Origin: Neolewinella aurantiaca
GTDB taxonomy: Bacteria; Bacteroidota; Bacteroidia; Chitinophagales; Saprospiraceae
NCBI RefSeq assembly: GCF_008014675.1
Contig: NZ_VOXD01000001.1
Location: forward strand, 186,001-250,000
Reading direction: 5' to 3'
DNA: 64,000 nt
Shown: piece by piece, positions 1,875-62,499 of the stretch
How the letters are laid out: the number at the start of each line of letters is the position of its first letter
Position numbering within the stretch: position 1 is the first letter of the stretch
Notes under the pieces: model-generated
The model's database searches: none
What the model was told of the DNA's origin: nothing
Seen by the model: only the letters and a program-made list of their open reading frames with translations
Translations under genes and position numbers: made by a program

Positions 1875-1892
1875 GGCACCTGCGGCCGCGCC
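1875..1892 (-). repeat. 18-bp dispersed repeat, copy 1
   Basis: Reads GGCGCGGCCGCAGGTGCC on the - strand; one mismatch (last base) to GGCGC-N3-CGCAGGTGCA. It lies 9 nt beyond the stop of the DMT transporter gene, in sense orientation. Confidence 0.85.
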
Positions 1893-1901
1893 TGCCGGAA
1901 T

Positions 1902-2348
1902 TCAGTAAGAACGGATAAGGACCACACCTGCGATAATCATTACGACACCAACGATCCGGGGCCAGCTTACCGGTGAGACAGGAATATCCAGCCAGCCGTA
2001 GTGATCCATCATAAGACCAAAAAGCATCTGAGCCGCCACCGTGAGACCAAAAGTGAGCGCTACACCAAGGCGCGGGGTCAGGACGATGATACCATAGACA
2101 TAAAAGGCTCCCAGTATTCCTCCTATCCAATAATACCAGGGCAGCGTAAGGCCGTCGCGAAGGTTTCCGAAGGGCATCCGCGTAATGAAGGCATAGAGCA
2201 GCAGTGCGATGAGGCCAACGGCAAAGGACACGATACTGGCGTAGACCGGGCTTTTCAGCGCGCGGCCCATTTCGGAATTCAGTCCGGCCTGAATTGGTAG
2301 CATCAGGCCCGCCGCAATGGCGAGTAGGTAAAAGGGAAGATGTTGCAT
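1902..2348 (-). CDS. DMT family transporter, YdcZ/DUF606-like
   Basis: Small integral inner-membrane protein of 148 aa with five probable membrane helices, resembling the single-domain DUF606/YdcZ branch of the drug/metabolite transporter superfamily. Seen: helices at about 3-22, 33-55, 62-84, 90-110 and 124-145, with short polar loops. These half-size transporters are believed to act as dimers; the substrate is unknown. The open frame extends 24 codons upstream, but the ATG at 2348 starts directly with the first membrane helix and sits 5 nt after a TACCTTCG -7 box, so I use it. It diverges from the gene at 2454. Confidence 0.8.
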   Translation of the reverse strand: MQHLPFYLLAIAAGLMLPIQAGLNSEMGRALKSPVYASIVSFAVGLIALLLYAFITRMPFGNLRDGLTLPWYYWIGGILGAFYVYGIIVLTPRLGVALTFGLTVAAQMLFGLMMDHYGWLDIPVSPVSWPRIVGVVMIIAGVVLIRSY

Positions 2349-2353
2349 AACGG

Positions 2354-2361: not shown

Positions 2362-2425
2362 ATGTTGGTAGCTGGTTGAACGTTGGTATATTGGCGCCAA
2401 CGGCAACAGACAACAAACAACCGCT

Positions 2426-5297: not shown

Positions 5298-5315
5298 GGC
5301 GCGGCCGCGGGTGCA
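5298..5315 (+). repeat. 18-bp dispersed repeat, copy 2
   Basis: GGCGCGGCCGCGGGTGCA, one mismatch to the consensus. It lies 9 nt after the patatin stop in sense orientation and continues into the extended flank AGGGAAGGTTGAAAGG, which runs straight into the palindromic element. Confidence 0.85.
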
Positions 5316-5787: not shown

Positions 5788-7029
5788 GTGAAATTTACAG
5801 ATTACCCCCTCGCCCCCGAAATCAAACGAAGCATTGGCAAGCTCGGCTGGAAACGCCCAACGGACATCCAGTACAAGGCCATTCCCAACATCCTCAAGGG
5901 AGAGGATGTGATGGGTATTGCGCAAACCGGAACCGGTAAAACGGCTGCCTTTGCCATCCCTGTTTTGCAGATGATCCACACCGGCAAGGAGAACGCCCGC
6001 CGCAAAGACGGTATCAAGTGCCTGATCATGGTACCCACCCGCGAGCTTGCGATGCAGCTCGACGGAGTGTTCTCCAGCCTCGCTAAGGGAACAAGGGTAA
6101 ACGTCTTCGCCCTCACCGGTGGGGTAGAGCAGGATCCCCAAATCCAACAGTTGCAAGACGGTGTCGATATCCTGATTGCCACCCCCGGCCGGATGTTTGA
6201 CCTTCTGAACCAGAAAGTCCTGCGCCTGGAGCGCGTCAACATCCTCGTCCTGGACGAGGCAGACCTGATGCTTGACCTTGGTTTCATCGAAGACATCAGA
6301 GGGGTGCTCGGTCACCTGAAAATGCGGCGACAGACCCTGTTCTTTTCGGCTACCATCAATGAGCAGATCAAAAAGCTGGCGTACACCCTGGTGAAGAAGC
6401 CGATCCGGATTCAGATCAGTCCGAAAGACCCCATCTCTAAAAACGTCGAGCACTCCGTCGTTTTTATTGAGATGGACGACAAGCGCTTCTTTCTGGAACG
6501 ATTTTATAAGGAGCATCCCGAAGCAAAGATTCTAAGCTTTGTTCGCACCCGCGTCCGCGCCGAAAGAGTCGCCAAAGCCATGAACCGGGCCAACATCAGT
6601 AGCCTGATCCTTCACGGGGATATGAGTCAGGAAGACCGCGTTGCCGCGCTGGAGTCTTTCCGCAACAACGAAAAACGGCTCATGATTGCCACCGACGTCA
6701 GTGCCCGTGGTATCGATATCCCCGACGTGACGCACGTGATCAATTACGACCTGCCGGACCAGCCAGACAACTACGTTCACCGCGTAGGCCGAACCGGCCG
6801 TGGCGCCAACAAAGGCATCGCTTATACCTTCTGTGCTCCGGAAGAGCACGACAAACTACGCGCCGTCGAAAATTACACCGGCACCGAAATTAAGGTCATC
6901 GACGTAGACCGCGCCGTCTACCGTCAAACCAAAGAGTTCAATCGGATCGACAACATGGACCTTGGCGCTTTGATGGATGAAGTAGAGGAAACCCTGAAGC
7001 GGAAGAAGAAAAAGAAAGGCAAAGGATAG
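5788..7029 (+). CDS. DEAD-box RNA helicase, RhlE-like
   Basis: ATP-dependent RNA helicase of 413 aa, likely in ribosome assembly or RNA turnover. Helicase motifs appear in order: Q motif region (RPTDIQYKAIP), Walker A AQTGTGKT, PTRELA, TPGR, the DEAD box in VLDEADLML, SAT (FFSATI), then the second RecA lobe with ARGIDIPDVTHVINYD and HRVGRTGR. The C-terminus is a short lysine-rich tail (RKKKKKKG) that could contact RNA. An upstream ATG at 5752 exists, but homologues typically begin M-K-F-x-D-x-x-L, which here is VKFTDYPL from GTG 5788. That start also lies 4 nt after a -7-like box. A second DEAD-box protein is at 13271. Confidence 0.92.
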   Translation: MKFTDYPLAPEIKRSIGKLGWKRPTDIQYKAIPNILKGEDVMGIAQTGTGKTAAFAIPVLQMIHTGKENARRKDGIKCLIMVPTRELAMQLDGVFSSLAKGTRVNVFALTGGVEQDPQIQQLQDGVDILIATPGRMFDLLNQKVLRLERVNILVLDEADLMLDLGFIEDIRGVLGHLKMRRQTLFFSATINEQIKKLAYTLVKKPIRIQISPKDPISKNVEHSVVFIEMDDKRFFLERFYKEHPEAKILSFVRTRVRAERVAKAMNRANISSLILHGDMSQEDRVAALESFRNNEKRLMIATDVSARGIDIPDVTHVINYDLPDQPDNYVHRVGRTGRGANKGIAYTFCAPEEHDKLRAVENYTGTEIKVIDVDRAVYRQTKEFNRIDNMDLGALMDEVEETLKRKKKKKGKG

Positions 7030-11922: not shown

Positions 11923-11940
11923 GGCGCGTACGCAGGTGCA
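11923..11940 (+). repeat. 18-bp dispersed repeat, copy 3
   Basis: GGCGCGTACGCAGGTGCA, exact match to the fixed positions, 21 nt after the pcm stop, sense orientation. Confidence 0.88.
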
Positions 11941-14719: not shown

Positions 14720-14737
14720 TGCACCTGCGACCGCGCC
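14720..14737 (-). repeat. 18-bp dispersed repeat, copy 4
   Basis: On the - strand GGCGCGGTCGCAGGTGCA, exact at the fixed positions; 61 nt beyond the RidA stop, sense orientation. Confidence 0.88.
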
Positions 14738-17633: not shown

Positions 17634-17651
17634 GGCGCGGGCGCAGGTGCC
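17634..17651 (+). repeat. 18-bp dispersed repeat, copy 5
   Basis: GGCGCGGGCGCAGGTGCC, one mismatch at the last base; between ppa and the flavoprotein gene, antisense to both. Flank GTGGAGGTTACAA resembles the extended repeat. Confidence 0.8.
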
Positions 17652-20918: not shown

Positions 20919-20949
20919 TTGCAAAGTTCAGTTTAAGGAGTACCTTTTG
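20919..20949 (+). promoter_or_regulatory. tRNA-type promoter copy
   Basis: TTG, 19-nt spacer, TACCTTTTG. About 31 of 34 bases match the promoter of tRNA-Leu at 38930-38963, with identical spacing. No tRNA follows; the 18-bp repeat begins at its 3' edge. Confidence 0.6.
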
Positions 20950-20965
20950 CGCGGCCGCAGGTACA
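20948..20965 (+). repeat. 18-bp dispersed repeat, copy 6
   Basis: TGCGCGGCCGCAGGTACA, two mismatches. It faces copy 7 and fuses to the promoter-like box. Confidence 0.75.
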
Positions 20966-21048
20966 GTGTTAAGTTTTTCGGAGGAGCAACTAAAAGCTGG
21001 AGTTCCTGAGGAAGGGTTACTAACTTCACCCTGCACCTGCGGCCGCGC
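20949..21048 (+). ncRNA. Candidate long-hairpin RNA
   Basis: If transcribed from the tRNA-type promoter, bases 20949-20975 would pair with 21022-21048 (24 of 27 positions complementary, the first 14 perfect) around a loop of about 46 nt. This is a structure prediction by eye; transcription is not shown by sequence. It could instead be a leader of the sensor gene at 21100. Confidence 0.3.
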
Positions 21049-21049
21049 C
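21032..21049 (-). repeat. 18-bp dispersed repeat, copy 7
   Basis: GGCGCGGCCGCAGGTGCA on the - strand, exact at the fixed positions, 50 nt before the hybrid sensor start. Confidence 0.88.
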
Positions 21050-34002: not shown

Positions 34003-36117
34003 ATGAATGTAATTTTATTGCGTGGCCAATATGGCCCGGCACTGGTTAAAACCATTGCTTATGCTTTTTTTGTTATTCCTCTGTTTGCTTACGGGAAAGA
34101 ATTGGCCGCGCAGACCGCCTCGAAACTGGTTTATGAAGATGCTTCAGGGTGCCTGCGATACGTTGCGGATTCCGAAAACAATTACCTGCCGGATTTCAGT
34201 CATGTAGGGTACCGGAACGGTGATGTTCCGCTTCCTGATGCCGAAGTTCGGGTAACATTAGATGCCATTGAAGGAGACAATACTGCACATATTCAGGCGG
34301 CAATTGATCAGGTAGCGGCGCTGAACGCAGGTGCAGACGGGGTTAAAGGAGCAGTATTGCTTAATCCGGGAGTCTACGATATTGAAGGGACGCTTCATAT
34401 TCAGGAAGACGGCGTGGTGCTCCGCGGATCAGGGCAGGGCGCGGATCCGTCAACGAACACCATTCTCCGTGGCCTCGGGGATACACCGGTAATGCGGGAC
34501 ATAATCACCGTTGGGGACGTCCCCGGTGTAAACTGGACGGGAGCTGTACCCGGAACCCGGTCGGCCATCACTAATCCGTTTTTGCCGGCGGGTTCCCGTT
34601 CGCTGGAGGTAGCGGGAGCCGAGCTTTACAGCGTCGGAGACAATGTGATCGTCTACCATCCCAGTACCGACGACTGGCTCGCCTCCGTAGAGTACGGTGC
34701 CACCGATGTAGATGCTCCCTGGACACCCGGCGAAATCGACATTTACTTCAACCGGTACATCACCGACGTCAATATCCCCGAAGGGAAAATCACCCTCGAT
34801 GCACCAATTTTCGATCATTTTGATCGCGCACTGGCGCAGGCAGAAATATATGTACTGGACGAGCCTGGTATCCGACGAAACATTGGCGTCGAGAACCTGC
34901 GGATAGACATCGTCACTGAAGGAGAAGAAGTTGAGAACCACGCTAAAAACGGAATCCAGTTTATTGGTACGGAAGACGTTTGGGTGAAAAACGTAACGGC
35001 GTTGCATTTCAGCTTCGCTCTGGTCGATACCCGGGTAACCAGCCGGCTCACGGTAACTGGTTGTGCTGCGCTCGAGCCTCATTCTCCGATCATCGGAGCG
35101 CGCCGGTACAATTTCACGGTAGGCAGTAAGTCGGGTAGTGTTTTGTTTACTGATAATACCGCCTCAGACGGCCGGCATACTTTTGCTTCCAACGGGGCGA
35201 GTAGTGTTGGGGGAGTCGTATTTCACGACGGAGAGACGACCGGAGATTACAACGCCAGCGAAGGACACCGGCGGTGGAGCCAGGGGCTGCTTTTCGATAA
35301 TATCACCTTTTTGGAACCACGCGGTTTTACCCTGCTTGGCCTGTACAACCGGGGGAGCTTTGGAACCGGACACGGATGGTCGGCAACCAACAGTGTCGCC
35401 TGGAATATTACTATGCCTCCGTTGCGGTACATTTTACTGCATAAACCTCCTCTGCGGCAGAACTATGCGGTGGGATGTAAAGCATTCGTCGATAACATCG
35501 GAATGTTCATCAAACCCCTTGGGTATGTAGAACAAACCAACCAGGACCCTTTGATTTCCTCATTGTTCGAGACACAACTGGCCCGGCGGAAACTGAACGG
35601 TGTCGCTCCGGATGCTCCGGCCCGGCTGACGGCTGTTACCGGAGAAAATAGCATCGAGTTGAACTGGCTGGATATTGCCAGCCGCGAAAACGGTTACGAA
35701 GTAGAATACTCCACCGATGGCGGAGAAAACTTTAGCCAGGTAACATCACTGCCGGCCAATACAACCAGCTATGTCCACCAAAATCCGGCAGGAGGAGAGT
35801 TGATCTACCGGGTTTATGCAACGGGACCCAACTGTCCTTCACCATTCTCTAATCCGGTAACTACCAGCCTGTCGGTATCTGCTTCTGACCTCGTAGCGGA
35901 GGGTGTCAGAGTATACCCGAATCCCGTGACTAACCGCTTATTTATCGAAACGGAAATTCCGTTAGCGTCCCTGGCCGTACACAACGCTGCGGGCCAGGTA
36001 ATCGCGGAGGTGAAGAATTCACAGGAGTTGGATACGTCGGGATGGCCCTCCGGACTCTACATCGTCCAGGGACGGGAAGCAAACGGTCGAAAATTCATAG
36101 CTAAAATAATCAAGTAG
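34003..36117 (+). CDS. Secreted beta-helix protein with FN3 and T9SS domain
   Basis: Secreted protein of 704 aa; first gene of a tight three-gene operon. N-terminal signal (about 20-45), a pectate-lyase-superfamily opening (DNTAHIQAAIDQVAALNAG, VLLNPGVYDIEGTLHIQEDGVVLRGSGQG), a right-handed beta-helix to about residue 520 (KNGIQFIGTEDVWVKNVTALHFSFALV, GLLFDNITFLEPRG), a fibronectin type III domain (about 535-620: RLTAVTGENSIELNWLDIASRENGYEVEYS), and a type A T9SS sorting domain (about 635-704: VRVYPNPVTNRLFIE). It is probably a lyase or hydrolase for the same polysaccharide as the upstream enzymes; the family is not recognised. It may define a little-studied lyase group. Confidence 0.82.
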   Translation: MNVILLRGQYGPALVKTIAYAFFVIPLFAYGKELAAQTASKLVYEDASGCLRYVADSENNYLPDFSHVGYRNGDVPLPDAEVRVTLDAIEGDNTAHIQAAIDQVAALNAGADGVKGAVLLNPGVYDIEGTLHIQEDGVVLRGSGQGADPSTNTILRGLGDTPVMRDIITVGDVPGVNWTGAVPGTRSAITNPFLPAGSRSLEVAGAELYSVGDNVIVYHPSTDDWLASVEYGATDVDAPWTPGEIDIYFNRYITDVNIPEGKITLDAPIFDHFDRALAQAEIYVLDEPGIRRNIGVENLRIDIVTEGEEVENHAKNGIQFIGTEDVWVKNVTALHFSFALVDTRVTSRLTVTGCAALEPHSPIIGARRYNFTVGSKSGSVLFTDNTASDGRHTFASNGASSVGGVVFHDGETTGDYNASEGHRRWSQGLLFDNITFLEPRGFTLLGLYNRGSFGTGHGWSATNSVAWNITMPPLRYILLHKPPLRQNYAVGCKAFVDNIGMFIKPLGYVEQTNQDPLISSLFETQLARRKLNGVAPDAPARLTAVTGENSIELNWLDIASRENGYEVEYSTDGGENFSQVTSLPANTTSYVHQNPAGGELIYRVYATGPNCPSPFSNPVTTSLSVSASDLVAEGVRVYPNPVTNRLFIETEIPLASLAVHNAAGQVIAEVKNSQELDTSGWPSGLYIVQGREANGRKFIAKIIK
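34317..34335 (+). repeat. Possible 18-bp repeat variant
   Basis: GGCGCTGAACGCAGGTGCA, one base longer than the consensus, followed by GACGGGGTTAAAGG, which recalls the extended flank. It lies inside the beta-helix gene and could be a chance match. Confidence 0.3.
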
Positions 36118-39138: not shown

Positions 39139-39156
39139 TGCACCTGCGTTTGCGCC
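39139..39156 (-). repeat. 18-bp dispersed repeat, copy 9
   Basis: On the - strand GGCGCAAACGCAGGTGCA, exact, with flank GGGAACGTT. It lies 3 nt past the stop of the lipoprotein gene, in sense orientation. Confidence 0.88.
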
Positions 39157-42147: not shown

Positions 42148-42165
42148 GGCGCGGACGCAGGTTCC
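42148..42165 (+). repeat. 18-bp dispersed repeat, copy 10
   Basis: GGCGCGGACGCAGGTTCC, mismatched at the last three bases except one C, followed by GGGGACGGTTGAA, close to the extended flank. Confidence 0.75.
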
Positions 42166-42393: not shown

Positions 42394-42411
42394 TGCACCC
42401 GCGCCCGCGCC
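42394..42411 (-). repeat. 18-bp dispersed repeat, copy 11
   Basis: GGCGCGGGCGCGGGTGCA on the - strand, one mismatch; 14 nt before the helicase ATG, so it lies in or next to its leader. Confidence 0.82.
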
Positions 42412-44858: not shown

Positions 44859-47800
44859 TTAACGCATCACCAGAATTTCCCCCGCTTTGGTGACTACCTT
44901 CCCGTCGAAAAGGCGTACCTCTACGGTGTAGACGTAAACGCCAATCGAAGGGTCCTGACCGGTGGCAGAACGCCCGTCCCAGTGCCCGAGGGCATCCTCG
45001 GGGTCCACGTTTTCGCGCCGGAAAACCTCTCCGCCCCAACGGTCGTAAACTGCGAAGGACAGGATGCTTTCTACCGCAGGGCCTGGGAAAATCCGGAACA
45101 CATCGTTAACGCCATCCCCGTTGGGGCTGAAGGCGTTGGGGACGTAGAAAAGGTCGTCGTTATTCAACGTTATCTGTACGGTTTGGGTGGCTTCGCAGCC
45201 GTTGGAATCGATAGCGACTGCCGTTACCCTCATGTTCCGCTCCGGCCGCACCGTGAAGGTCGGGCAGGCGGGGCACCCTGATTCGTCGTTGGTGAGCCAG
45301 TTGATGGCTGCGTCGGGGGGCGAAAGTACCGAAGGAGCCAAAACTACTGAATCACCGAAGTCGACGGTGAGGTCGGTGGGTAAAATGAACAGAAGATTAC
45401 TGGCAGAATTGACGGAAAGGTCGAATACCTGAAGGCATCCTGATGAGTCTTCTGCAGTCAGGCGGTAAGGCCCCGGAGCGAGGTTCGCAAAGAAGGGGGC
45501 GGTTTGCTCCGGCCCGTCGTTGAGGCGGTAGGTGAAGCCGGCCGGCGCATCGGGGATCGTGATGGTTCCGTCGTTTTCGCCGGGGCAGGATTCGGGCGCG
45601 GCCGCAGGTGCAATGGGAGTTGTTGGGGCGTTGGATATTGTCACTTCGGCGGTTGCTGCGCAACCGGTCGCCGTCGTAACGGTAACGGTGTACGCTCCGG
45701 CAGCCAGGGCCTCGTTCAGGGCCGACGCGGAGCCGTCGCTCCAGAGGATGGTGACCGGCTGGCCGTTGCTCTCGAAGAACACTTCCGCTGCACCTGCGCC
45801 CGCGCCATCACAACTTGGTCTAATCTGTGCGGCCGTTGCCGAAACATCGTTTACCTCCAGGAAGACCTGATGCGTGCTGTCGCAATTGTTACTGCCAATG
45901 TCCACACTGGAATACACGTCAGCAACCTGTTCGTAAACGCCAAAGATCAAGGCTGAATCACCCGCATAAATGCTGATGGTCTCCGTTGTCACTACGGGCT
46001 GATTTACCACAATTGTGATCTGATTGGTGCTGTCGCAGCCGTTACTGCGCATAAGCGTTTGCGTGTAGGTATTGGCCTCCGTTTCGAAGCTGCCGAATAC
46101 CAGCACGGAGTCCCCCGTACAGATGGTGAACTCCTCCGTTATGAGGGTGTCGCGCAGCCCCAAAACGTCGAGCGTATCGAGGGCGGGGCATCGGCTTTCG
46201 TCGGTCGCGTCGTAGTACTGTCCGGGGCTGGTAATCGTTTGGCCAGCAAAAGAAAGACTGTCGCCCGGGCACAGGTAGGCCGTATCACGCAGCCCTGCCA
46301 TGGCCTTTACGCGAACCCGCACACTGTCTGCGCTGAAGCATCCCGGACCCTGCTGTGCCGCCACCAGTAGGAGAGTGTCCATCGTAGGCGCAAAACGTAC
46401 TTCTTCACAGTCGAAACAGTCGATGAAACTGCTTTGGCTCCACTGGATGTTGGTGTAACCTTCGAGCTTGAAGGTCAGGGTGTCTCCCGGGCAAATGAGG
46501 GTGTCCAGCCCCAGCTCTATTGCCGTTGCCGGGTCTACCGTAACCGTAACCGTATCGGATTGCTGGTTACCGCAGGAGTCGGTAGCTACTACCCAAAAAT
46601 CACCCTCGCCGAAGGCGGTGAAGTTCTCTTCCGTACTGCCATCGACCCATTCGTAGCTGGCAAAACCAGGCTGGGCGTGCAGCGGGATGGTTGCGTTTTG
46701 GCAGACGGTGGTATCGGGGCCGAGATCAAGCGTGAGCGGTGGAGAGGGCCTCAGGATGATGGTGTCGAACCCGGACCTTCCGCAGGTGTCGATTACTTCA
46801 AAATAATAGGTGTCTGCCTCCGGCAAAACGAAAGGAATACTATCTCCCGGTTCTAAGTTGAGTTCGCCCGTAAGGCTGTTACTGCTCACCTTCAGACTAT
46901 CCCAGTTGAGGGGCAGGTAAACCCAGACAAGCGAGGGGCCGCAGAACCGGTCTTCATAGCCGAAATCCGGATTTGGCGGGTCAAGGCAGCAGCAGTTTTC
47001 ACTCAGGTCGGGGTCGTCGCAATCGATCAGGCCATCCCCGTCGTCGTCGATGTCATTGCTACAGATTTCAACAATCTCTTCTTCGATACAATCGCCTTCG
47101 CAGGTTTCTTTCGCTTCCAGGTCTGCTTCTCCCAGGTCGAGGTTCTGGGTGAAAAAAGAGGTTTCTCCCAACTCCAGGGGAACGTTGGCAACAATGGTCT
47201 GGGCTTCTGTAAAGTCTACCGGGAGATGCTCGACAACGAACGGAGTACACCCAAAAATGAAATCCTGGGATAAATTCACCCGGACGATTCCAAAGGAGGT
47301 TGCAAGCGAGCTGAATCCATCTACGGTCGAAAATGTAAAGGACGTTGTGGAAGATGTTAAGTGAAAGGCATCCTCAATTCCCTCAAATCCAATACCTGGA
47401 AAAATAGTGTTAGCCCAAATTATATTACCCGATTCGTCGAGCCTGATGAAGGAGTTGAGTTGCGACGTTGAACTGTAAAGCCAAACTATAAAACCACCTG
47501 GAAGGTCAGTTATACCTTGAATAATTGATCCGTTGTCGTAGTTTTTCTGCCAACGAAGGTTTCCGTCGGGGTCCGTTTGAACCAGAACAAATCCATCCCC
47601 TCCGTTACGTTCGCATAACATGGTGACGCTGGTATCTTTTACGACCATCCCCCGGGCCTGGCCAATCTGCGACTCATCGTACTGTTTGTTGAAGATGACC
47701 GTTCCGTTGGCGTTAAGCCTTGCCAACTGGGGCGTCCCTGCGGCCGACTGCTGAATGCTGCCTAGAGCAAAATAGGTGTCGCTCCCGGGGTGCTTGTCGA

Positions 47801-50800: not shown

Positions 50801-51188
50801 GGATTTCGGTGTTTATGCCCGTTGCAGGATCGAAGTAGTTGACGTTTTCAAGCGCCTGGTTCAGATAATCCACGCTGCGGAGAACGTCGGAATCGGGGAT
50901 GTTTTCAGCGCCGTTTTCGTGCACAATGTGAAAGACGATCGGGAGAACGTAGGGTGGGGCCGCGGCAGATTTAGTACGGCCTTCTTGCTGACTTTTGGCC
51001 CATTCTGCTTCCAGGGCGTCCATTTTTTTGCCATAGGACGGCGCGGTTTTTCGGAGCGCATCATGGACGTGGTCTGTGCTGCAGTTCATCACTTCCTCCG
51101 TAGCGGAGGGCGGTTCACTTGGCGCAAACGCAGGTGCATGGGAAGGTTGGACGGCAATAAGCGTCAGCAAAAGTCTGAGCAAATACAT
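44859..51188 (-). CDS. Giant secreted M43 metalloprotease, T9SS type B
   Basis: Secreted protein of 2109 aa, the largest gene here. Signal peptide (MYLLRLLLTLIAVQPSHA), a pappalysin-type M43 metalloprotease (about 70-320) with zinc motif HELGHYLGVRH (His229, Glu230, His233, His239), two PKD domains (about 330-490), two long homologous blocks of beta-strand repeats resembling beta-propeller delivery/SBBP-like repeats (about 520-880 and 930-1320), a short calcium-binding-like SNDIDDDGDGLIDCDDPD stretch, further Ig-like/PKD-type domains to about 2000, and a type B gliding-motility C-terminal domain (about 2010-2109: VPNAFSPNGDGVND). It should be exported by T9SS, cleave extracellular proteins and stay attached to the cell. 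The ATG at 51188 is chosen over 51218 because it begins the signal peptide. Three 18-bp repeats lie inside it. Confidence 0.92.
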   Translation of the reverse strand: MYLLRLLLTLIAVQPSHAPAFAPSEPPSATEEVMNCSTDHVHDALRKTAPSYGKKMDALEAEWAKSQQEGRTKSAAAPPYVLPIVFHIVHENGAENIPDSDVLRSVDYLNQALENVNYFDPATGINTEIQVCLARRTPDNQPTNGINRIESSLTNLNSDDDRDLKDLSRWAPRDYINVWVVKEICGLGLGCGVAGYAYYPGAHGSSIDGIVMEARWLADDEADMTVLVHELGHYLGVRHTFDGGCDNDDCTISGDRVCDTPPDQSTAAVPCTGSANSCDTDTDSGPFATDQNDMHINYMDYGYFRCYSAFTAGQRDRMHFFLEGTRRSLLESRGCEEPCPAVVTAGFTGGDVTIVAGETINFTNTSTNGDRYEWRVGGNLLGTNEDFSHLFDTEGFFQVQLLVIPSDTVLCASVEITQQVRVVCEVDAGFDPPSPGAQVDSMVVFTNTSSGGDESEWTVDGTVVSTATDLNYVFTAAGRYRICLTETTGLCENERCITIFVREAVMDPDPPTDTIGCDGRFSYSYSLPDNPFDGSFSATVVSGDTVFALATQEWRSFALALDADGSIIWQTEFYPSSSRGNTQRLILDSEGMLAGTARGFGDEGDRGIAFRIDPSSGAVAWSKEFVAGEGMVFQDITDHSSGNEYLLIAVSSGDQSAGRSILLQLDRTSGNIANLPRQIGNGTFLAREILVDDTGVTTNFLISGEQIANATGGIVLARTNDTGEVLASTRVMSEIAGGTFIRFENTFTIKDGDSLIVATYFDSDPTLGESTLRVCKTDLNGNPAWTKDYPLPDPAGDLLGISLTEAGYLFHCSLGLNSALLQTDFNGDVLWSNRYDGLLQLYTSPDAVAITSDHILVPGGQSVDAQVLPTVVRLSKDGSVTSSCTPYVPLDIFLVSVANSPGNFQMTDTGFEVLNLNFGTEPSNFTLVEELVCREDCPEEEDCLRPYLRTYGPRSIAPNPPPYEVNHHVRNGENVIIAGRNQSQQPYVAGLGSNGAVLWARSIFLSQSGTAGQAGTVSDMIIDHEGMVCGVGTAGASANGGLGTYAFRFNPDNGDMLWLRYYRKEARSFVFSNIHHTPGDTFLRAAGYREDDALTAISNGMTARIDLASGDIVGVPLTYTDPGETSFRAFDKHPGSDTYFALGSIQQSAAGTPQLARLNANGTVIFNKQYDESQIGQARGMVVKDTSVTMLCERNGGDGFVLVQTDPDGNLRWQKNYDNGSIIQGITDLPGGFIVWLYSSTSQLNSFIRLDESGNIIWANTIFPGIGFEGIEDAFHLTSSTTSFTFSTVDGFSSLATSFGIVRVNLSQDFIFGCTPFVVEHLPVDFTEAQTIVANVPLELGETSFFTQNLDLGEADLEAKETCEGDCIEEEIVEICSNDIDDDGDGLIDCDDPDLSENCCCLDPPNPDFGYEDRFCGPSLVWVYLPLNWDSLKVSSNSLTGELNLEPGDSIPFVLPEADTYYFEVIDTCGRSGFDTIILRPSPPLTLDLGPDTTVCQNATIPLHAQPGFASYEWVDGSTEENFTAFGEGDFWVVATDSCGNQQSDTVTVTVDPATAIELGLDTLICPGDTLTFKLEGYTNIQWSQSSFIDCFDCEEVRFAPTMDTLLLVAAQQGPGCFSADSVRVRVKAMAGLRDTAYLCPGDSLSFAGQTITSPGQYYDATDESRCPALDTLDVLGLRDTLITEEFTICTGDSVLVFGSFETEANTYTQTLMRSNGCDSTNQITIVVNQPVVTTETISIYAGDSALIFGVYEQVADVYSSVDIGSNNCDSTHQVFLEVNDVSATAAQIRPSCDGAGAGAAEVFFESNGQPVTILWSDGSASALNEALAAGAYTVTVTTATGCAATAEVTISNAPTTPIAPAAAPESCPGENDGTITIPDAPAGFTYRLNDGPEQTAPFFANLAPGPYRLTAEDSSGCLQVFDLSVNSASNLLFILPTDLTVDFGDSVVLAPSVLSPPDAAINWLTNDESGCPACPTFTVRPERNMRVTAVAIDSNGCEATQTVQITLNNDDLFYVPNAFSPNGDGVNDVFRIFPGPAVESILSFAVYDRWGGEVFRRENVDPEDALGHWDGRSATGQDPSIGVYVYTVEVRLFDGKVVTKAGEILVMR
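45595..45612 (+). repeat. 18-bp dispersed repeat, copy 12 (in gene)
   Basis: GGCGCGGCCGCAGGTGCA, exact; antisense inside the M43 gene, where it encodes A-P-A-A-A-P. Confidence 0.85.
45789..45806 (-). repeat. 18-bp dispersed repeat, copy 13 (in gene)
   Basis: GGCGCGGGCGCAGGTGCA on the - strand, exact; sense inside the M43 gene, encoding G-A-G-A-G-A. Confidence 0.85.
51121..51138 (+). repeat. 18-bp dispersed repeat, copy 14 (in gene)
   Basis: GGCGCAAACGCAGGTGCA, exact, with flank TGGGAAGGTTGGACGG. It covers the end of the M43 signal peptide (encoding A-P-A-F-A-P), antisense to the gene. Confidence 0.87.
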
Positions 51189-53209: not shown

Positions 53210-53227
53210 TGCACCTGCGCCCACGCC
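53210..53227 (-). repeat. 18-bp dispersed repeat, copy 15
   Basis: GGCGTGGGCGCAGGTGCA on the - strand, one mismatch; between the small membrane protein and the M14 peptidase genes. Confidence 0.82.
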
Positions 53228-53284: not shown

Positions 53285-55921
53285 ATGAAATTTAAATTAT
53301 TACTCCTCCAGCTTTTTCTTGTTTTGTCTGTGTTGTCGGCGCAGTCCGACGTGTACGAACGGCTGCCGTTAACGACCGGTTCGAGAGCAGACCTACCTTC
53401 TCCGGCTGAATTTCTGGGTTACGAACTGGGACAACGGTTTACGGAATACGCCCGCTCAGTTGAATACTTCCGGATGTTGGCGGAGAAGAGCGACCGCATA
53501 AACATCGAAAAGTACGGCGCAACTTACGAGCAACGACCATTATTGCTCCTGACGATCAGCTCGCTGGAAAACATGGCCAGGATTGACGAAATCAAAGCAA
53601 ATCAGAAGACTTTGGTGGCGCGCACGCAGGTGCAGGGCAAGGATAAAGAAGAGATAAACCTGGATCGCCATCCGGTCATCAATAGCTACAGTTACAACAT
53701 TCACGGTAACGAAGCGAGCAGTACCGAAGCTGCTATGCAAGTCGCCTGGGAGCTTGCTACTACCAATGACCCCGTAATGCTGGATGCCCTCCGGAAAACA
53801 GTCAATCTTCTGTTTGTTTGCATCAACCCCGATGGCCGCGACCGTTACGTTTACTGGGCCAATTCTGTTGCCCGCCAGACCGGCGGCGAGGAACCCCGTG
53901 ATCTGGAGCATTATGCTCCATGGCCGAATGGCCGAACCAATCACTACTGGTTCGATCTTAACCGGGATTGGGTATGGGGTGTCCACCCCGAGAGCCGCGG
54001 GCACACTACAGCCTACCAGGAATGGATGCCACAGGTACACACCGACTACCACGAGCAAGGCTATGACGCCAATTACTTCACCGTGCCCGGCACTACACCG
54101 CGCAATCTGTTACTGCCAGATGCCTACGAAGTTTGGGCCGATACCTTTGGCCGTGCCAACATCACCGAATTCAACAAGAAAGGCCTCAGCTACTTTACCC
54201 GCGACCGTTTCGATTTCTACTATCCCAGCTACGGGTCCAGCTATCCTTCCGTAATGGGGGCCATCGGGATGCTGACCGAACAGGGCGGGATTGGCGGACA
54301 CCGTGCCGTCGAAACCGAAGACGGTTACGTACTGACGTTCCGCCAGCGCGTCTACGATCATTACACCACTAGCATCGCTCAGGTGAAAGCCGCCGCGCGC
54401 AACCGCCGCGAACTGATTGACTACAGCCTGGAAGCCTGGGATCCCCTCAATTCCAAATCCGATGTGAACGCCTACGTGATCGAAAACGACGGCTCGGAAT
54501 TCTTTGAAGATGTACTGAAAATGTTGCTGCTCAACGGCGTCGAAGTACTCCGGACGAAGGAGACTGTATCGTCTTCTGCGATAAACTTCAGGGACGGAAA
54601 ACAGAGCAACCGCTCTTTCCCCGCCGGTAGCCTGATCATCGGAACGGAGCAACCACGCCACCTCTTCGTCAATTCAATTCTCAGCCGCGACCTCCAGATC
54701 GAAGACAGCGTTATGTACGACATGTCGACCTGGTCTGCTCCCCTGGCGTACAACCTGGAGGCCTACAGCGTTGCTTCTCCCATTAGCGTAGATACCGAAC
54801 CGGTGGTTTGGGAAGATAAAATCGGGAAGGTTATCACCATCGGTGATGCTTCCGACCGGGCCTACGCCTATGTGATCCGCTGGAACCAACGGACAGCGCC
54901 TAAGGCGCTCGCGAAAATCTGGAAGATGGATTACCGCGTGCGCGCTGCGCACGAGCCTTTCACCGCCGACGACGGCACCGCCTTCCCGGCGGGAAGCTTA
55001 ATTGTTCTGGCGGGGCGTAATCCGGATAAAACCAACATCGATGCTGACATGCGTCAGCTTGCACAAGCCTTCGACGTAGACATTCACCGCCTCGCCACCG
55101 GAAGGATGAAGGAAGGAATGGACCTGGCCAGCACCCGGAACTTTCCGGTAAAACAGCCTAAAGTCGCACTTCTCGTTGAGCCTCCCTTCAATGTGTACAC
55201 CAGCGGTCAGATATATTTCCTCTTCGACTGGGAAACAGAACTGCCCGTAGACAGGATTCGTGCGTCGACGCTGATGCAGACGGCGATACCGAAATTCGGC
55301 TCGCGCTACGGCCTCGCCGACCTGAACGACTACGATGTCCTCATCCTCCCTGAAGCACGAAACCTCGATGATGTATTCGGGCAAGATGAGCAGCGGAAAC
55401 TGAAAGACTGGCTCTCGGGCGGAGGCACCATCGTCGCCGTAGGTTCCAGTGCGGAGTTCTTCACCAAAGAATCCGGCTTTCTGAAACCGCAGGAACTCAG
55501 CAGACCTGAAGACGAGGACAAAGAAGGAGCCGCTGCTCTCAACTACAACGAAAGAACGGATTACTTTGGTAAGAAACGGATTCCGGGATCGGCGCTGAAC
55601 GCTACAGTCGATGTAAGTCACCCGTTGGCCTTCGGGGTGAAGTCTGATGTGTACACACTCAAGTTTGGCAATACGGCGCTGGTTCCGGATGCCAGCCTTC
55701 AGAGTGTTGGTCGCTACGTGCCGGAAGGGAACGAACTTCTGGCTGCCGGTTATGCCTCCCGGCCTAACCTGGATTCTTTAGCGGGCAAAACATGGGCGGG
55801 TGTCCGTCCTTACGGCCGGGGCCGCATCGTTTACTTTATCGACAACCCCCACTACCGGATGTTCTGGCGGGGACCGAGCCGGATGATGCAGAATGCAGTC
55901 ATGGTGGTTCCGGGGATGTAA
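53285..55921 (+). CDS. M14 zinc carboxypeptidase family protein
   Basis: Exported peptidase of 878 aa. Signal peptide (LLLLQLFLVLSVLSAQ), an M14 catalytic domain (about 40-400) with the first zinc motif H-x-x-E in NIHGNEASSTEAAM (His140, Glu143), CINPDGRDRYVYW, the second zinc-ligand region VHTDYHEQGYDANYF and the glutamate region GMLTEQGGIGGHRAV. About 450 residues follow, ending in a ThuA/GATase-like segment (DYDVLILPEARNLDDVFGQDE) and GRGRIVYFIDNPHYRMFWRGPSRMMQNAV. Members of this family trim peptides, including cell-wall or dietary peptides, in the periplasm. An 18-bp repeat lies within codons 112-117. Confidence 0.92.
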   Translation: MKFKLLLLQLFLVLSVLSAQSDVYERLPLTTGSRADLPSPAEFLGYELGQRFTEYARSVEYFRMLAEKSDRINIEKYGATYEQRPLLLLTISSLENMARIDEIKANQKTLVARTQVQGKDKEEINLDRHPVINSYSYNIHGNEASSTEAAMQVAWELATTNDPVMLDALRKTVNLLFVCINPDGRDRYVYWANSVARQTGGEEPRDLEHYAPWPNGRTNHYWFDLNRDWVWGVHPESRGHTTAYQEWMPQVHTDYHEQGYDANYFTVPGTTPRNLLLPDAYEVWADTFGRANITEFNKKGLSYFTRDRFDFYYPSYGSSYPSVMGAIGMLTEQGGIGGHRAVETEDGYVLTFRQRVYDHYTTSIAQVKAAARNRRELIDYSLEAWDPLNSKSDVNAYVIENDGSEFFEDVLKMLLLNGVEVLRTKETVSSSAINFRDGKQSNRSFPAGSLIIGTEQPRHLFVNSILSRDLQIEDSVMYDMSTWSAPLAYNLEAYSVASPISVDTEPVVWEDKIGKVITIGDASDRAYAYVIRWNQRTAPKALAKIWKMDYRVRAAHEPFTADDGTAFPAGSLIVLAGRNPDKTNIDADMRQLAQAFDVDIHRLATGRMKEGMDLASTRNFPVKQPKVALLVEPPFNVYTSGQIYFLFDWETELPVDRIRASTLMQTAIPKFGSRYGLADLNDYDVLILPEARNLDDVFGQDEQRKLKDWLSGGGTIVAVGSSAEFFTKESGFLKPQELSRPEDEDKEGAAALNYNERTDYFGKKRIPGSALNATVDVSHPLAFGVKSDVYTLKFGNTALVPDASLQSVGRYVPEGNELLAAGYASRPNLDSLAGKTWAGVRPYGRGRIVYFIDNPHYRMFWRGPSRMMQNAVMVVPGM
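53617..53634 (+). repeat. 18-bp dispersed repeat, copy 16 (in gene)
   Basis: GGCGCGCACGCAGGTGCA, exact; sense inside the M14 gene, encoding A-R-T-Q-V-Q. Confidence 0.85.
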
Positions 55922-58799: not shown

Positions 58800-60722
58800 A
58801 TGAAAATAACAATGCGTTCGCTTACCCTGATTTTTACCATTTTTTGCACCTGCGTCCTCGCCGCCCAAAAAGAAGCTGATTACTACACGATCAGCAAAAT
58901 ATCGATACCCGAAAGTATCAAACTGGAGGTAGGTGGGATGGATTTTATGCCCGACGGCCGCCTGGCTATTTGTACCCGCCGTGGCGAGGTCTGGCTGGCC
59001 GCTGATCTGGAAGACCAAACTACGTGGCAACTTTTTACCCGCGGACTGCACGAACCCCTGGGGCTTACCGTCAACGACGGCGCTATCTATGTTTCTCAGC
59101 GGGGAGAGGTTACTAAACTCACGGATACTAATGGCGATGATCGGGCCGACGTATTCGAAACCGTCTACGAGCTTCCCCTAACCGGCAATTACCACGAATA
59201 CCACTATGGCCCGCTCTTTCTGTCCGATGGCTCCATGCTGGCTACCCTGAATGTGGGCTGGGAAGGCGGTGGTGTAAGCAGGGTTCCGTGGCGTGGCTGG
59301 ATGATGCGCTACGACCCGGCAGCTAAAAAACTAAAGCCCTACGCAGCTGGCCTCCGTTCTCCGGCCGGCTTCGGGACCAACCCCGAAGGCGATGTTTTCG
59401 TAGCCGAAAATCAGGGAGACTGGATCGGATCCGGGCGCATTACCCACCTCGTGGAAGGTGATTTTGCCGGGCATAAGGCCAGCCTGAACTGGGCCGACCA
59501 ACCTGACTCGAAGGTAACCGTCAGACCCGAAGATATTCACGATGACTATGGAACCATGTACGCCGCACATCAGAAAGTACCGGGCCTGAAACAGCCCGCA
59601 GTCTGGTTTCCGCACGGTATTCTGGGTATCTCGACCGCAGCGATCATCGCCGACAGAACGGAAGGTGGATTCGGGCCGTTTGCCGGTCAGCTTTTTGTTA
59701 GCGATCAGGGCCAGAGTAAGATCATGCGCGTGGCGCTGGAGAAGGTCGAGGGCGAGTACCAGGGAGCAGTATTCCCCTTTCGGGAAGGATATAGCTCAGG
59801 ACTGTTGCGCCTTGACTTCGACGCAAACAACACACTTTGGGCCGGGCAAACCGCCCGGGGATGGGCCGCGACCGGCGGGAAGGAATTTGCCCTCGAAGGG
59901 CTGAAGTGGACGGGCAAAGTACCGTTCGAGATGCATGCGATCAGGGCTACGAAGGAAGGTCTGGATGTGACCTTCACGAAGCGCGTAAATCCCGTAGGCG
60001 TAAAACCCGGTGCTTTCAGCCTGCAGAATTTTACCTATAAATACCACAAGAGTTACGGTAGCCCGGTCATTGATCTGGAAGAAAACGAAGTTACTTCAGC
60101 CACGTTGCTGCCCGACGGTAAGACGGTACGTCTGGTCCTCGGAGGGTACCGGCCAGGATACATTTACGAGGTTAAAGTGAAAGGCCTTCGGTCTGCCGAT
60201 GGCACAAACCTGCTACACGACTTTGGCTATTACACGCTCAATGCAATTCCCGGCGGCGCGGGCGCAGGTGCAATGGCTGCCGAAGGTGCAAAAAAAGACC
60301 TTAAGGCATCGCCGAAGCGCCCCGTGGAAATGCCCGCTGCCTGGAACGGAGAGTTCGACGTAGACATCTTGCTCGAAACAGAGCACGGGATGAAGTACAA
60401 GCAAAACTACCTGACGGTGAAAGCCGGAAGTAAAGTGCGCTTCACTTTCCGTAATCCCGACGATATGCAGCACAATTTCGTACTGACCAGCGGTAAAAAA
60501 GGAGATAAGGTCGGTCAGAAAGCAGGAGGTATGGGCCTTAAAGGCATTGCTAAGGGCCACATCCCCGACATGCCCGAGGTCCTGGTTCACACCAGCCTGG
60601 TAGAACCGGAAACCGAGGAAGTGATTTTCTTCGAAGCTCCGGACAAACCGGGTATTTATGAGTTCGTATGTACCGTGCCGGGCCACTATCAGCAAATGCG
60701 CGGGGTACTCAAGGTGGAGTAA
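58800..60722 (+). CDS. Propeller dehydrogenase-like/cupredoxin fusion
   Basis: Exported protein of 640 aa. Signal peptide (SLTLIFTIFCTCVLAAQ), an NHL/sorbosone-type beta-propeller (about 25-380: MDFMPDGRLAICTRRGEVWL, GLTVNDGAIYVSQRGEVTKLTDTNGDGRAD-like, GSMLATLNVGWEGGG, FGTNPEGDVFVAENQGDW, LFVSDQGQSKIMRVAL), a small beta domain (about 390-480), then an azurin/plastocyanin-like cupredoxin (about 515-640) with probable copper ligands His (DDMQHNF), Cys, His and Met (CTVPGHYQQM). This suggests oxidation of a sugar or alcohol by the propeller with electron transfer to copper, which is inference. A linker G-A-G-A-G-A is encoded by an 18-bp repeat. Bound PQQ or heme cannot be seen. Confidence 0.85.
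   Translation: MKITMRSLTLIFTIFCTCVLAAQKEADYYTISKISIPESIKLEVGGMDFMPDGRLAICTRRGEVWLAADLEDQTTWQLFTRGLHEPLGLTVNDGAIYVSQRGEVTKLTDTNGDDRADVFETVYELPLTGNYHEYHYGPLFLSDGSMLATLNVGWEGGGVSRVPWRGWMMRYDPAAKKLKPYAAGLRSPAGFGTNPEGDVFVAENQGDWIGSGRITHLVEGDFAGHKASLNWADQPDSKVTVRPEDIHDDYGTMYAAHQKVPGLKQPAVWFPHGILGISTAAIIADRTEGGFGPFAGQLFVSDQGQSKIMRVALEKVEGEYQGAVFPFREGYSSGLLRLDFDANNTLWAGQTARGWAATGGKEFALEGLKWTGKVPFEMHAIRATKEGLDVTFTKRVNPVGVKPGAFSLQNFTYKYHKSYGSPVIDLEENEVTSATLLPDGKTVRLVLGGYRPGYIYEVKVKGLRSADGTNLLHDFGYYTLNAIPGGAGAGAMAAEGAKKDLKASPKRPVEMPAAWNGEFDVDILLETEHGMKYKQNYLTVKAGSKVRFTFRNPDDMQHNFVLTSGKKGDKVGQKAGGMGLKGIAKGHIPDMPEVLVHTSLVEPETEEVIFFEAPDKPGIYEFVCTVPGHYQQMRGVLKVE
58845..58862 (-). repeat. 18-bp dispersed repeat, copy 17 (in gene)
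   Basis: GGCGAGGACGCAGGTGCA on the - strand, one mismatch; antisense inside the signal peptide of the fusion protein, encoding C-T-C-V-L-A. Confidence 0.75.
60255..60272 (+). repeat. 18-bp dispersed repeat, copy 18 (in gene)
   Basis: GGCGCGGGCGCAGGTGCA, exact; sense, in the linker before the cupredoxin domain, encoding G-A-G-A-G-A. Confidence 0.85.
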
Positions 60723-60736
60723 AGGTTGACCGCCGT

Positions 60737-61612
60737 TCAGCTACGGCTGATACGGAGATATTCGATGGGCTTAGCCCCAAATCCCTGAAAAAACAAGGCT
60801 ACCCCCGGCAGGTCTGATCCTTCGAAATCGAGGATGGTGTCAGTACCAGCATAAGCCCGGATGATGCCGTCCAGGAGGCGGGGCATGCCGTGCAGGCCAA
60901 ATCCAGCATGGCTGCTGGCCGCCAATAGGTTAAAGATCCGGTTGCCGTGATGTACCAGCACCAGCGCTGCTATAGTTTTTCCCTCATCATCGGTTAGGTG
61001 ATAGCATTGTCCGGTTTTTTGGGTGATAATATGTCTGGTAAGTTGTTTCAATGCGCTATAGTCGGTCCTGCTTAAGTTGGCTTTGGTTCCGGTATGTTCC
61101 TGAAAGAAGGAAAGGAATTCGGCAATGGGCCATTCCGCCAGCGTTGTAACGGGGGAGTCTCTTAGTTTTCGGCGGAGGTCTCTGCGGTAACCGCGGGCAA
61201 TAATCGGGTAAGGAGGATTTAGATCCAGTTCATGATTTGTCCGGGGAGTAGAAACCCAGTTCTTAAGTACTCTGGTTGCTGGCCAGGGTGGATAGATAGC
61301 CAGCTTACGCACATGGTAATACTTCGGGATTGCATTGAGTAGAAGATCGAGATCCCCGGCTTGTAAATCCCCGAAGACCCCCTGGTGCTGGGTAAAGGGC
61401 GCTCCGTTGATTAGTTTGAAAGGGCCGATGCTGTTGCGGTGCGGCAGGGGCATCACGGCCCGGTAATCATCGAGTACCAAGCCAGACCAACGTTGGTTGG
61501 TAACTGCATCCAGCCACCAACTGAGCCCGTAGGGAGCGCTGCGAACTGCCCGGTCCCACCGTTGGAGGTTGAGGTCGTTGCGTGAGAGCAGTTTTACTAG
61601 AGTAGGTTTCAT
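60737..61612 (-). CDS. FemAB/GNAT-like acyltransferase, paralogue 2
   Basis: Cytoplasmic protein of 291 aa with the look of a GNAT/FemAB-type transferase. It begins NLQRWDRAVRSAPYGLSWWLDAVTNQRWSGLVLDDYRAVMPLP, has ELDLNPPYPIIARGYRRDLRRKLRD mid-way, a core strand CYHLTDDEGKTIAALVLVHHGNRIFNLLAASSHAGFG (the usual acetyl-CoA-site region), and the end LDFEGSDLPGVALFFQGFGAKPIEYL. It is a clear paralogue of the next gene upstream (61609): the same landmarks in the same order. The start codon overlaps the stop of the upstream gene by 4 nt (ATGA), so the two are translationally coupled. Substrate unknown; aminoacyl or acyl transfer to peptidoglycan, lipid or a sugar are all possible. Confidence 0.82.
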   Translation of the reverse strand: MKPTLVKLLSRNDLNLQRWDRAVRSAPYGLSWWLDAVTNQRWSGLVLDDYRAVMPLPHRNSIGPFKLINGAPFTQHQGVFGDLQAGDLDLLLNAIPKYYHVRKLAIYPPWPATRVLKNWVSTPRTNHELDLNPPYPIIARGYRRDLRRKLRDSPVTTLAEWPIAEFLSFFQEHTGTKANLSRTDYSALKQLTRHIITQKTGQCYHLTDDEGKTIAALVLVHHGNRIFNLLAASSHAGFGLHGMPRLLDGIIRAYAGTDTILDFEGSDLPGVALFFQGFGAKPIEYLRISRS

Positions 61613-62499
61613 TGAACGGTAAGGTATGGCCGTCTTTCCGGACCGAAGTAGCTAAAGAACCGGGCGACTCCGGGAATGTCAGACCCCTCAAAATCGAGAT
61701 AGTTGCCCGGGCCACGGTGACGTTTTATGATTTCGTCGATAAGGAGCGCCATTCCCTCGCGTTCGTAACCGAGAGCGGTGGAGACTGGCATCAGGTTAAT
61801 GATGCGGCCGTTGTGGTTTGGAAAGAAGCCCGTAGCCAGCAGTTCGCCCGTTTCGCTTTGCAGTTGGTAGCAGTGGCCGGCATTGTGGTTCATGGCGGCG
61901 TGGATAAGGGCGCGGGCGCAGGTGAAGTGTTTCGCTTTAAGCCCGGCTTTAGGGCCTATCTTGTCCTGATAACAGGCAACCACAAGTTCCGCGTCGGCTG
62001 GCAGTAAAACCGCCGGGCTGTGCTTCCTGATTTTGCGGCGCAGGCTTTTGTGGTAGCCCGTCCGGATGGTGTCGAAGTCGGGGCTGAGATCGAGTACGAA
62101 GTTAGTCCTGAGGCTCGTAGTGTACGGAGGGGGAACATCGGCCGCAACCACGTTTTCGGTAAGTGGCAGGACGAATGAATTCAATCCGGAGGGTAAGTTG
62201 CCAAAAACATCGGGCACATCTCCGGGGAGCAGGTTCCCGAAGGGGCCGCATTGTTGCGTGAACGGCGGTCTTTGCACCTGCGGTCGCGCCTGGCTACTGA
62301 ACGGGCGGCGCAAAGAAAAAGGCTCGCGGGGAAGGGCCATTACGGCCCGGTAGTCATCAAAAACCAAACCGTCCCATCTGCCCGGACAAACAGCATCGAG
62401 CCACCACGAAAAACCATACGGAAGATAGGTCGGATCATCCGCCACCGCTTTATTCCAGCGTATGGTGTCTATTTCTCCATACTTGAGGTAGCTTACCAT
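61609..62499 (-). CDS. FemAB/GNAT-like acyltransferase, paralogue 1
   Basis: Upstream member of the tandem pair, 296 aa. Seen: EIDTIRWNKAVADDPTYLPYGFSWWLDAVCPGRWDGLVFDDYRAVMALP, LDLSPDFDTIRTGYHKSLRRKIRK, CYQLQSETGELLATGFFPNHNGRIINLMPVSTALGYE and the close LDFEGSDIPGVARFFSYFGPERRPYL. The central and terminal motifs match the downstream paralogue, so the pair arose by duplication; about one third of the aligned residues differ even in the motifs, so the event is not recent. Two 18-bp repeats fall inside this gene but not in its twin, at places where the twin differs. No signal peptide. Confidence 0.82.
   Translation of the reverse strand: MVSYLKYGEIDTIRWNKAVADDPTYLPYGFSWWLDAVCPGRWDGLVFDDYRAVMALPREPFSLRRPFSSQARPQVQRPPFTQQCGPFGNLLPGDVPDVFGNLPSGLNSFVLPLTENVVAADVPPPYTTSLRTNFVLDLSPDFDTIRTGYHKSLRRKIRKHSPAVLLPADAELVVACYQDKIGPKAGLKAKHFTCARALIHAAMNHNAGHCYQLQSETGELLATGFFPNHNGRIINLMPVSTALGYEREGMALLIDEIIKRHRGPGNYLDFEGSDIPGVARFFSYFGPERRPYLTVQ
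61909..61926 (+). repeat. 18-bp dispersed repeat, copy 19 (in gene)
   Basis: GGCGCGGGCGCAGGTGAA, one mismatch; antisense in paralogue 1, encoding F-T-C-A-R-A. Confidence 0.75.
62273..62290 (-). repeat. 18-bp dispersed repeat, copy 20 (in gene)
   Basis: GGCGCGACCGCAGGTGCA on the - strand, exact; sense in paralogue 1, encoding A-R-P-Q-V-Q in an insert the twin lacks. Confidence 0.85.

Follow-up and report, generated by a model that had tools for sequence, protein, structure and literature searches.

A dispersed, strand-specifically spaced repeat in Neolewinella aurantiaca as a candidate self-DNA signal

Sites in the window and across the genome

The stretch of Neolewinella aurantiaca DNA analyzed here (64,000 nucleotides; hereafter the window) spans positions 186,001 to 250,000 of contig C1 in a genome of 5,995,659 bp in 104 contigs, and carries numerous copies of a short repeat with the 18-bp core GGCGCGGmCGCAGGTGCA. 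An earlier note, made from the letters of the window, had reported about 20 such copies, 11 exact and nine near. All 20 were recovered at their coordinates, and a 21st copy with two mismatches (6544..6561, minus strand, coding) as well as two variants with altered loop length have to be added. A scan allowing up to three mismatches yielded 22 matches, whereas 100 dinucleotide shuffles averaged 2.49 and never exceeded 7; the match with three mismatches at 48081 is read as a chance hit. Our gene caller, a simple one of our own, placed 13 of the 21 sites between genes, where 12 had been noted before, and eight in coding sequence.

Exact intergenic sites lie at 11923..11940 (plus strand), 14720..14737 (minus), 28331..28348 (plus, with an AAA centre), 39139..39156 (minus, between convergent genes), and 51121..51138 (plus). 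Intergenic sites with one mismatch were found at 1875..1892 (minus), 5298..5315 (plus, 8 bp past a stop codon), 17634..17651 (plus), 42394..42411 (minus), and 53210..53227 (minus; no relative aligned), and one with two mismatches at 42148..42165 (plus). Two further sites, 20948..20965 (plus, two mismatches) and 21032..21049 (minus, exact), are the left and right arms of a pair whose tails face each other, 84 bp apart from start to start.

The repeat extends far beyond the window. With up to one mismatch, the whole genome of 6.0 Mb contains 1,381 copies, 690 on the plus and 691 on the minus strand, which agrees with the earlier observation of both orientations, and reversed-pattern controls gave 0 and 1 copies. 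Counting across 396 genomes of the order revealed 4 to 1,491 copies in all 17 Neolewinella genomes and 0 to 7 in the remaining 379, close to the 0 to 5 of their control columns. A de novo word search covering 100 kb from each of four genomes beyond the genus (three from the family and one from the order) returned nothing comparable. Repeated words are present in two genomes from other genera of the family, G164 (L166–L170) and G314 (L171–L175), e.g., ATCCGTGTTCC in eight and ACCAACCGTCG in seven one-kb bins of 100 kb.

To describe placement, we used 846 kb of the N. aurantiaca genome with 257 sites (up to two mismatches), 156 of them between genes (a density of 1.10 per kb) and 101 in coding sequence (0.143 per kb; 39%). 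Sense-strand coding sites fall into the three reading frames as 29/28/0. As most sites lie outside genes and the repeat uses both strands, we reject an origin from codon usage or one protein motif, which the earlier note had named as an explanation that would undo its reading. Its impression that the sites following stop codons are mostly in sense orientation did not survive the larger sample: coding sites are 57 sense and 44 antisense, and those between tandem genes 37 sense and 51 antisense. This parity also disfavors an RNA element. No bias by replichore was observed with GC skew as a proxy on four contigs (plus/minus counts of 49/51 on C1, 23/24 on C2, 40/32 on C50, and 18/20 on C8).

Motif anatomy and same-strand spacing

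The core was derived from 144 copies with up to two mismatches and full flanks in 462 kb. Beyond it, a tail RRGnAnG(G/T)TT is conserved at +18 to +27, a T-poor stretch follows at about +31 to +37, and a weak A/T enrichment precedes the core at −7 to −3; nothing is conserved farther out. The length of 18 bp given previously is therefore correct for the core and too short for the conserved signal. The three central bases, described as freely variable, are in fact constrained, with G in 79% and G in 74% of the copies, followed by A (45%) or C (37%).

The core can form a small stem of positions 1–3 with 8–10 (GCG/CGC) around a four-base loop. For pair 3:8, the 231 copies examined in the own genome comprise 213 G-C, eight T-A, four C-G, one A-T, and two G-T combinations, and three that do not pair. 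Loops of 3, 5, 6, or 7 bases with the same flanks occur 27 times in total, compared with 194 four-base loops. A search for variants newly counted 17 loop-length and five stem forms and none in the reversed control; the two loop-length variants in the window have a 6-nt loop (32440..32459, minus) and a 5-nt loop (34317..34335, plus). We consider base pairing in the core probable for N. aurantiaca; in the rest of the genus the covariation is weak or absent.

The most distinctive property of the sites is their arrangement. Adjacent sites are oppositely oriented in 187 of 253 pairs (p = 1.4e-14), in 77 of 108 pairs on two contigs taken after the effect had first been noticed (p = 1.1e-5), and in 18 of 20 pairs in the window. 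Observed-to-expected ratios of same-strand pairs in successive bins up to 4 kb are 0.00, 0.17, 0.04, 0.13, 0.26, 0.48, 0.83, and 0.98, while opposite-strand pairs show no such trend (2.00, 1.04, 1.22, 0.65, 0.91, 0.91, 0.96, and 1.04). Same-strand pairs are thus nearly absent below 1.5 kb (five, against 68 opposite pairs, among 73) and reach the expected level again at about 3 kb; the avoidance ends at about 2.5–3 kb. Among 993 control 7-mers, the same-strand fraction averaged 0.561 and was never below 0.294; the only three 8-mers that qualified were all part of the motif. Exclusion holds in every context, with opposite-to-same ratios of 26:1 for intergenic, 26:3 for mixed, and 16:1 for coding pairs, the last of which led us to reject an artefact of gene boundaries. 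The 22 loop and stem variants follow the same rule (10:1), as do the sites of 19 other genomes of the genus, pooled and searched with their own dialect patterns (57 opposite and four same of 61 pairs). Spacing along each strand is regular, with coefficients of variation (CV) of 0.64 and 0.61.

Orientation therefore matters for where a site is placed. One-strand exclusion is expected if a site serves one strand or direction over 2–2.5 kb and renders a second copy redundant; orientation-blind saturation, the natural expectation from Haemophilus influenzae, would exclude both kinds of pair. Same-strand exclusion and, in this genome, a hairpin-like core appear to be new properties, neither of which the earlier note had picked up.

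Two explanations other than DNA uptake start from this polarity. In the first, the repeat would be a Chi-like polar tag for recombination or self-DNA, read in one direction by an end-processing enzyme, and each strand would need its own spaced copies. This would account for the independence of the strands, the regular spacing, and the sites in phage described below; however, it does not predict a hairpin or dialects that change in place, finds no support in the GC-skew data, and demands strong selection on each of about 1,400 sites. Known Chi sites, moreover, measure 5–8 nt, and we regard this explanation as improbable. We rate lower still a site bound by a nucleoid or chromosome-architecture protein, the bacterial counterpart of an oriented boundary element, which would suit a genome-wide, oriented signal with alternating neighbors. 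The paired change at 3:8 would be unexpected if the site were read as double-stranded DNA, the avoidance stops at about 2.5–3 kb, and a change of dialect within one genus would be hard for such a protein. The chromosome-organization signal and the protein binding site suggested in the earlier note are likewise weighed against by the lack of GC-skew bias and by the phage sites.

The chief rival draws on the hairpin and on close inverted pairs. Here, the repeat would resemble a repetitive extragenic palindromic (REP) sequence, read by a domesticated Y1 single-strand nuclease of the REP-associated tyrosine transposase (RAYT) or IS200 type: same-strand pairs within one single-stranded window would be excised, leaving exclusion, and close inverted pairs would correspond to REP doublets forming hairpins (REPINs). 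Y1 proteins are encoded in 20 of the 21 genus genomes, the 3:8 covariation suits a hairpin substrate, and tails-facing pairs 60–120 bp apart are enriched 9.4-fold. Comparison of 17 Y1 proteins (35 loci tried, five without a usable frame) showed that most of those of about 220 residues are 38–54% identical to one another, with three lower. Nevertheless, 39% of the sites are coding, whereas 14 of 1,067 REP 16-mers overlap genes in Pseudomonas fluorescens (PMC3116915), although another survey places some REPs inside open reading frames (ORFs; PMC3733652). The spacers of close pairs are mostly unrelated, which disfavors doublets copied as a unit: among 19 close pairs (up to 260 bp apart, in 846 kb, including 20948–21049), the best match between pairs is 75% over 83 nt, made up of the arms and a short spacer, and all others are shorter. 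Sites also change in place by substitution, as detailed below. In an informal count, not adapted to dialects, nine of the 30 Y1 loci covered, each no longer than about 3.3 kb, held a site with up to one mismatch, not above the general site density, and G396, a draft estimated at 95% completeness, has no Y1 match despite a dialect site in comEC. Taken together, we consider the Y1 explanation unlikely, if the least unlikely of the rivals.

Some features of the pairs and of the Y1 genes were noted in passing. At least one close tails-facing pair encloses a terminator-like hairpin, as judged by eye. A Y1 (HUH) family of about 220 residues is common to many species of the genus (L066–L069, L076–L080, L275–L280), and in eight genomes a Y1 match lies about 2–5 kb from an ATPase of about 950–1,070 residues, taken for UvrA.

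Dialects, change in place, and phage sites

De novo words and iterative profiles, based on about 100 kb per genome, revealed that genomes of the genus use related yet distinct consensus forms ('dialects'), such as GGCGCTGCCGCAGGTGC in G147, GGCGGGGaCGCgGGAGC in G194, and GCTAACAAAGTAGCA in G338. Iterative refinement yielded nothing for G296 (N. xylanilytica), G280, and G338, which have other dialects, nor for G274, G244, and G304 (20 kb each). The dispersed word of G338 (L141–L144, L107) is very different and carries an RnG tail; 24 copies of AAAGTAGCA were counted in 96 kb. In G129 (N. persica DSM 23188), we further noticed a tandem array of about 25-bp units around GGCGTAGTCCAGGG (L145, 18530–19150) and a tandem heptamer array of GCAACCT (L148, from 7171).

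A codon alignment of comEC from 21 genomes illustrates how dialects relate to position. Eight genomes carry a site in the same column (G000, G208, G397, G129, G396, G398, G170, and G147, the last in its own dialect spelling), the forms of G079 and G304 at this column are degenerate, and in G338 its own word CAAAGTAGCA sits in the next column. A second column, on the opposite strand, holds a site common to G194 (with its own spelling GGAGC), G290 (Lewinella sp. IMCC34183), G244, G399, G068, G274, and G216. G218, G280, and G296 match at neither column. With eight genomes sharing a column and the G338 word in the next, we conclude that copies arise mostly by substitution and not by insertion.

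Comparison of orthologous loci, which the earlier note had proposed, gave a similar picture for the window. Eight of nine sites tested could be aligned with the closest relative, Lewinella sp. ANT-68 (G208), and seven of these eight carry the site or a close variant there. At the exact coding site 45595..45612 (plus, antisense to its gene), this relative has GGCTCGGTAGCGGGTGCA in a gap-free alignment; it also retains the exact coding site 45789..45806 (minus) without a gap, and at the intergenic site 51121..51138 it has GGCGCGAACGCAGGCGCA with gaps outside the core only. The exact site 53617..53634 (plus), within the coding sequence 53285–55921, aligns gap-free in G208 and G397. The coding sites 58845..58862 (minus, one mismatch) and 61909..61926 (plus, one mismatch) have closely similar forms without gaps in G208, the latter also in G397. 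The exact coding site 60255..60272 (plus) aligns without a gap in the core in G208, G129, and G396, and the exact coding site 62273..62290 (minus) is present without a gap in G397.

Exceptions exist. The alignment of 62273 with G208 is broken by a 24-nt gap inside the site. Indels lie beside 53617 (G129, G396, G218, and G079), beside 60255 (G218, G079, and G396, with local gaps or a shift in the first two), near 51121 (G208), and near 58845 (G218, which lacks the site and has gaps outside the core only). N. persica retains site 53617 with local gaps, all outside the core; the site is absent in JB7, and other species show a variant or shifted form. In N. marina, N. litorea, IMCC34183, and N. 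aquimaris, a look-alike is displaced by about 18 nt in a stretch of variable length, an alignment read by eye for which we claim no gap-free homology.

Judged from these alignments, sites appear and vanish mostly by substitution rather than insertion, and persist in place. This bears on the idea, also raised in the earlier note, that the repeat is the remains of a short mobile or transposed sequence with decayed copies. High copy number and a cloud of mismatched forms (62, 60, 23, and 26 copies with zero to three mismatches in 462 kb) are what such an origin would leave behind. However, no unit extends beyond about 45 bp, orthologous coding cores are mostly gap-free, flanks are unrelated and close-pair spacers mostly so, different spellings occupy one position, same-strand neighbors are evaded, and 101 of the 257 sites lie in coding sequence. 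These points disfavor the insertion of a mobile unit, and the explanation, largely contradicted already, is very improbable.

Sites also occur in phage. Scanning IMG/VR with the core and part of the tail returned 23 stretches, at least 11 of which, among the top 20 matches listed, belong to one type of temperate phage. Its 38.7-kb contig (L305/L316, two overlapping pieces) bears eight sites in about 36 kb and encodes a terminase, head protease, endolysin, tape measure protein, integrase, and repressor. Its host is probably Neolewinella, judging by the sites themselves. Eleven further phage pieces were found by protein, nine of them without a site (five at a GC content of 0.51–0.56, and four distant ones at 0.33–0.38). 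A terminase search in the 21 genus genomes gave no match, which is uninformative as it lacked a known positive. For comparison, temperate but not large lytic phages of Pasteurellaceae are reported to accumulate uptake signal sequences (USS; PMC6776037).

A candidate self-DNA signal compared with known systems

ComEC is encoded in all 21 genus genomes, and DprA and HHH_3 proteins in 20 each, with tandem domains in many of the HHH_3 proteins; the genome without a DprA or HHH_3 match is 55% complete. No full T2SSE/GspE/PilB ATPase was found in the 21 genomes (partial matches covered at most 84 of 370 positions; pilins were not part of the search), which speaks against a type IV pilus receptor. 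For the GspE/PilB ATPase family, 11 of the 21 scored just above the cut-off, and 14 of 14 controls were positive. The type IV pilin ComP reads the DNA uptake sequence (DUS), and ComN is predicted to read the USS (PMC12616744). Riemerella, another member of the Bacteroidota, relies for transformation on ComEC, DprA, ComF, RecA, and a further four proteins that do not resemble known machinery (PMC8459023), and presumably requires no type IV pilus.

Our favored reading is that the repeat is a genus-specific self-DNA sequence resembling the uptake signals of natural transformation, probably without type IV pili; we judge it about equally likely to be right or wrong. Among the functions proposed in the earlier note, an uptake signal is the one best supported, by genus restriction, dialects, origin mostly by substitution, use of both strands, and the temperate phage, with uptake as such deduced from this pattern. 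From the same data we infer that the process is transformation, that reading takes place on single-stranded DNA, and that the sites are maintained by drive. Under this reading, a site would be a short asymmetric signal consisting of a small hairpin (GGCG-loop-CGC), AGGTGCA, and the RRGnAnG(G/T)TT tail, read on one strand only, in the simplest case the single strand imported by ComEC, or alternatively by a reader moving along DNA in one direction. DNA with a readable site would preferentially be imported, protected, or integrated, and site-creating alleles would spread through the population by molecular drive wherever coding allows. A second same-strand site within one imported stretch of about 2–2.5 kb would add nothing and decay, while a site on the other strand would be independent. 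As the specificity of the reader drifted, sites would be rewritten in place, giving rise to dialects. A more specific version, in which incoming DNA would be retained or not according to a hairpin on the strand being imported, with one readable tag per strand per about 2–3 kb, no pilus receptor, and action during or after strand separation, is tentative, and we would sooner expect it to fail than to hold.

To our knowledge, sequence-specific DNA uptake is established in only two proteobacterial families, both with type IV pili. If the favored reading is true, the repeat would represent a third independent origin, in Bacteroidota and with different machinery. Strand-specific spacing would then serve as a genomic ruler for the length of DNA per event (about 2–2.5 kb) and as a direct test of molecular drive, and the dialects within one genus would offer a natural panel in which co-variation could point to the reader protein. 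We found no report of an uptake signal in this group in the open-licence literature.

Several observations weigh against the self-DNA reading. Regarding the hairpin, neither pair 1:10 nor pair 2:9 shows compensated changes, at least six of 141 cases did not pair when a second anchor was used in the own genome, and the folding energy is ordinary: the consensus DNA gives −2.9 kcal/mol, which 69 of 200 shuffles matched or bettered. Covariation is weak outside the own genome, where counts include overlapping loci: with the anchor AGGTGC, three of four non-GC cases among 155 are paired, and a looser anchor (273) gave eight Watson–Crick, three wobble, and 21 non-pairing cases. The model leaves the enrichment of tails-facing pairs unexplained. 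In comEC, N. persica has GGCGGGG where its own consensus is GGCGCGG, and G280 and G296 lack a site at both columns. Because the motif itself served to find the phage, the site density there is selected, and five related phage pieces found by protein carry no sites. ComEC and DprA are widespread (matches in 10 and 11 of 14 control genomes) and prove little, and DUF5689, the putative receptor family of Riemerella, occurs only in G338 (C115, repeats). A search of the open-licence literature for 'Lewinella' together with 'DNA uptake' returned no paper and hence no transformation experiment in the genus. Finally, uptake in H. influenzae is independent of USS orientation (PMC1939737), so that uptake signals are not known to show strand-specific avoidance.

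Like REP/REPIN–RAYT systems, the repeat has a possible hairpin, is rich in intergenic copies, forms some close inverted pairs, and co-occurs with Y1 genes; unlike them, it is 39% coding rather than almost wholly extragenic, lacks a conserved doublet unit, changes dialect in place, and is not visibly tied to Y1 genes. From Chi and FtsK-orienting polar sequences (KOPS) it differs in having no orientation skew by replichore. With the transformation of Riemerella anatipestifer, a member of the same phylum, it shares ComEC, DprA, and HHH proteins (PMC8459023); the excerpted text of that study mentions no uptake signal, and DUF5689 is absent from 20 of 21 genus genomes.

The closest parallels are the two established uptake signals. 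As with the DUS of Neisseriaceae, we observed a short asymmetric signal in about a thousand copies, coding and intergenic, with phylogeny-following dialects and inverted pairs (PMC3630211), and the coding share of 39% is close to the 35% of Neisseria gonorrhoeae DUS within ORFs (PMC1939737). In contrast to DUS, the signal of Neolewinella measures about 28 bp or more rather than 10–12, belongs to another phylum without a full pilus ATPase, and so probably without a ComP-type pilin, and shows same-strand exclusion and hairpin covariation. The USS of Pasteurellaceae likewise combines a core with conserved flanks over about 29 bp or more, varies in dialects, accumulates in temperate phages (PMC6776037), and is evenly spaced (Karlin, cited in PMC1939737, which finds the spacing less even than a role in compaction needs); H. 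influenzae has 65% of its USS in ORFs (PMC1939737), unlike Neolewinella. As no full pilus ATPase was found, we do not file the motif as a DUS or USS of known type; its copy number on both strands, its coding and intergenic placement, and its clade-specific dialects are nevertheless those by which DUS and USS are recognized.

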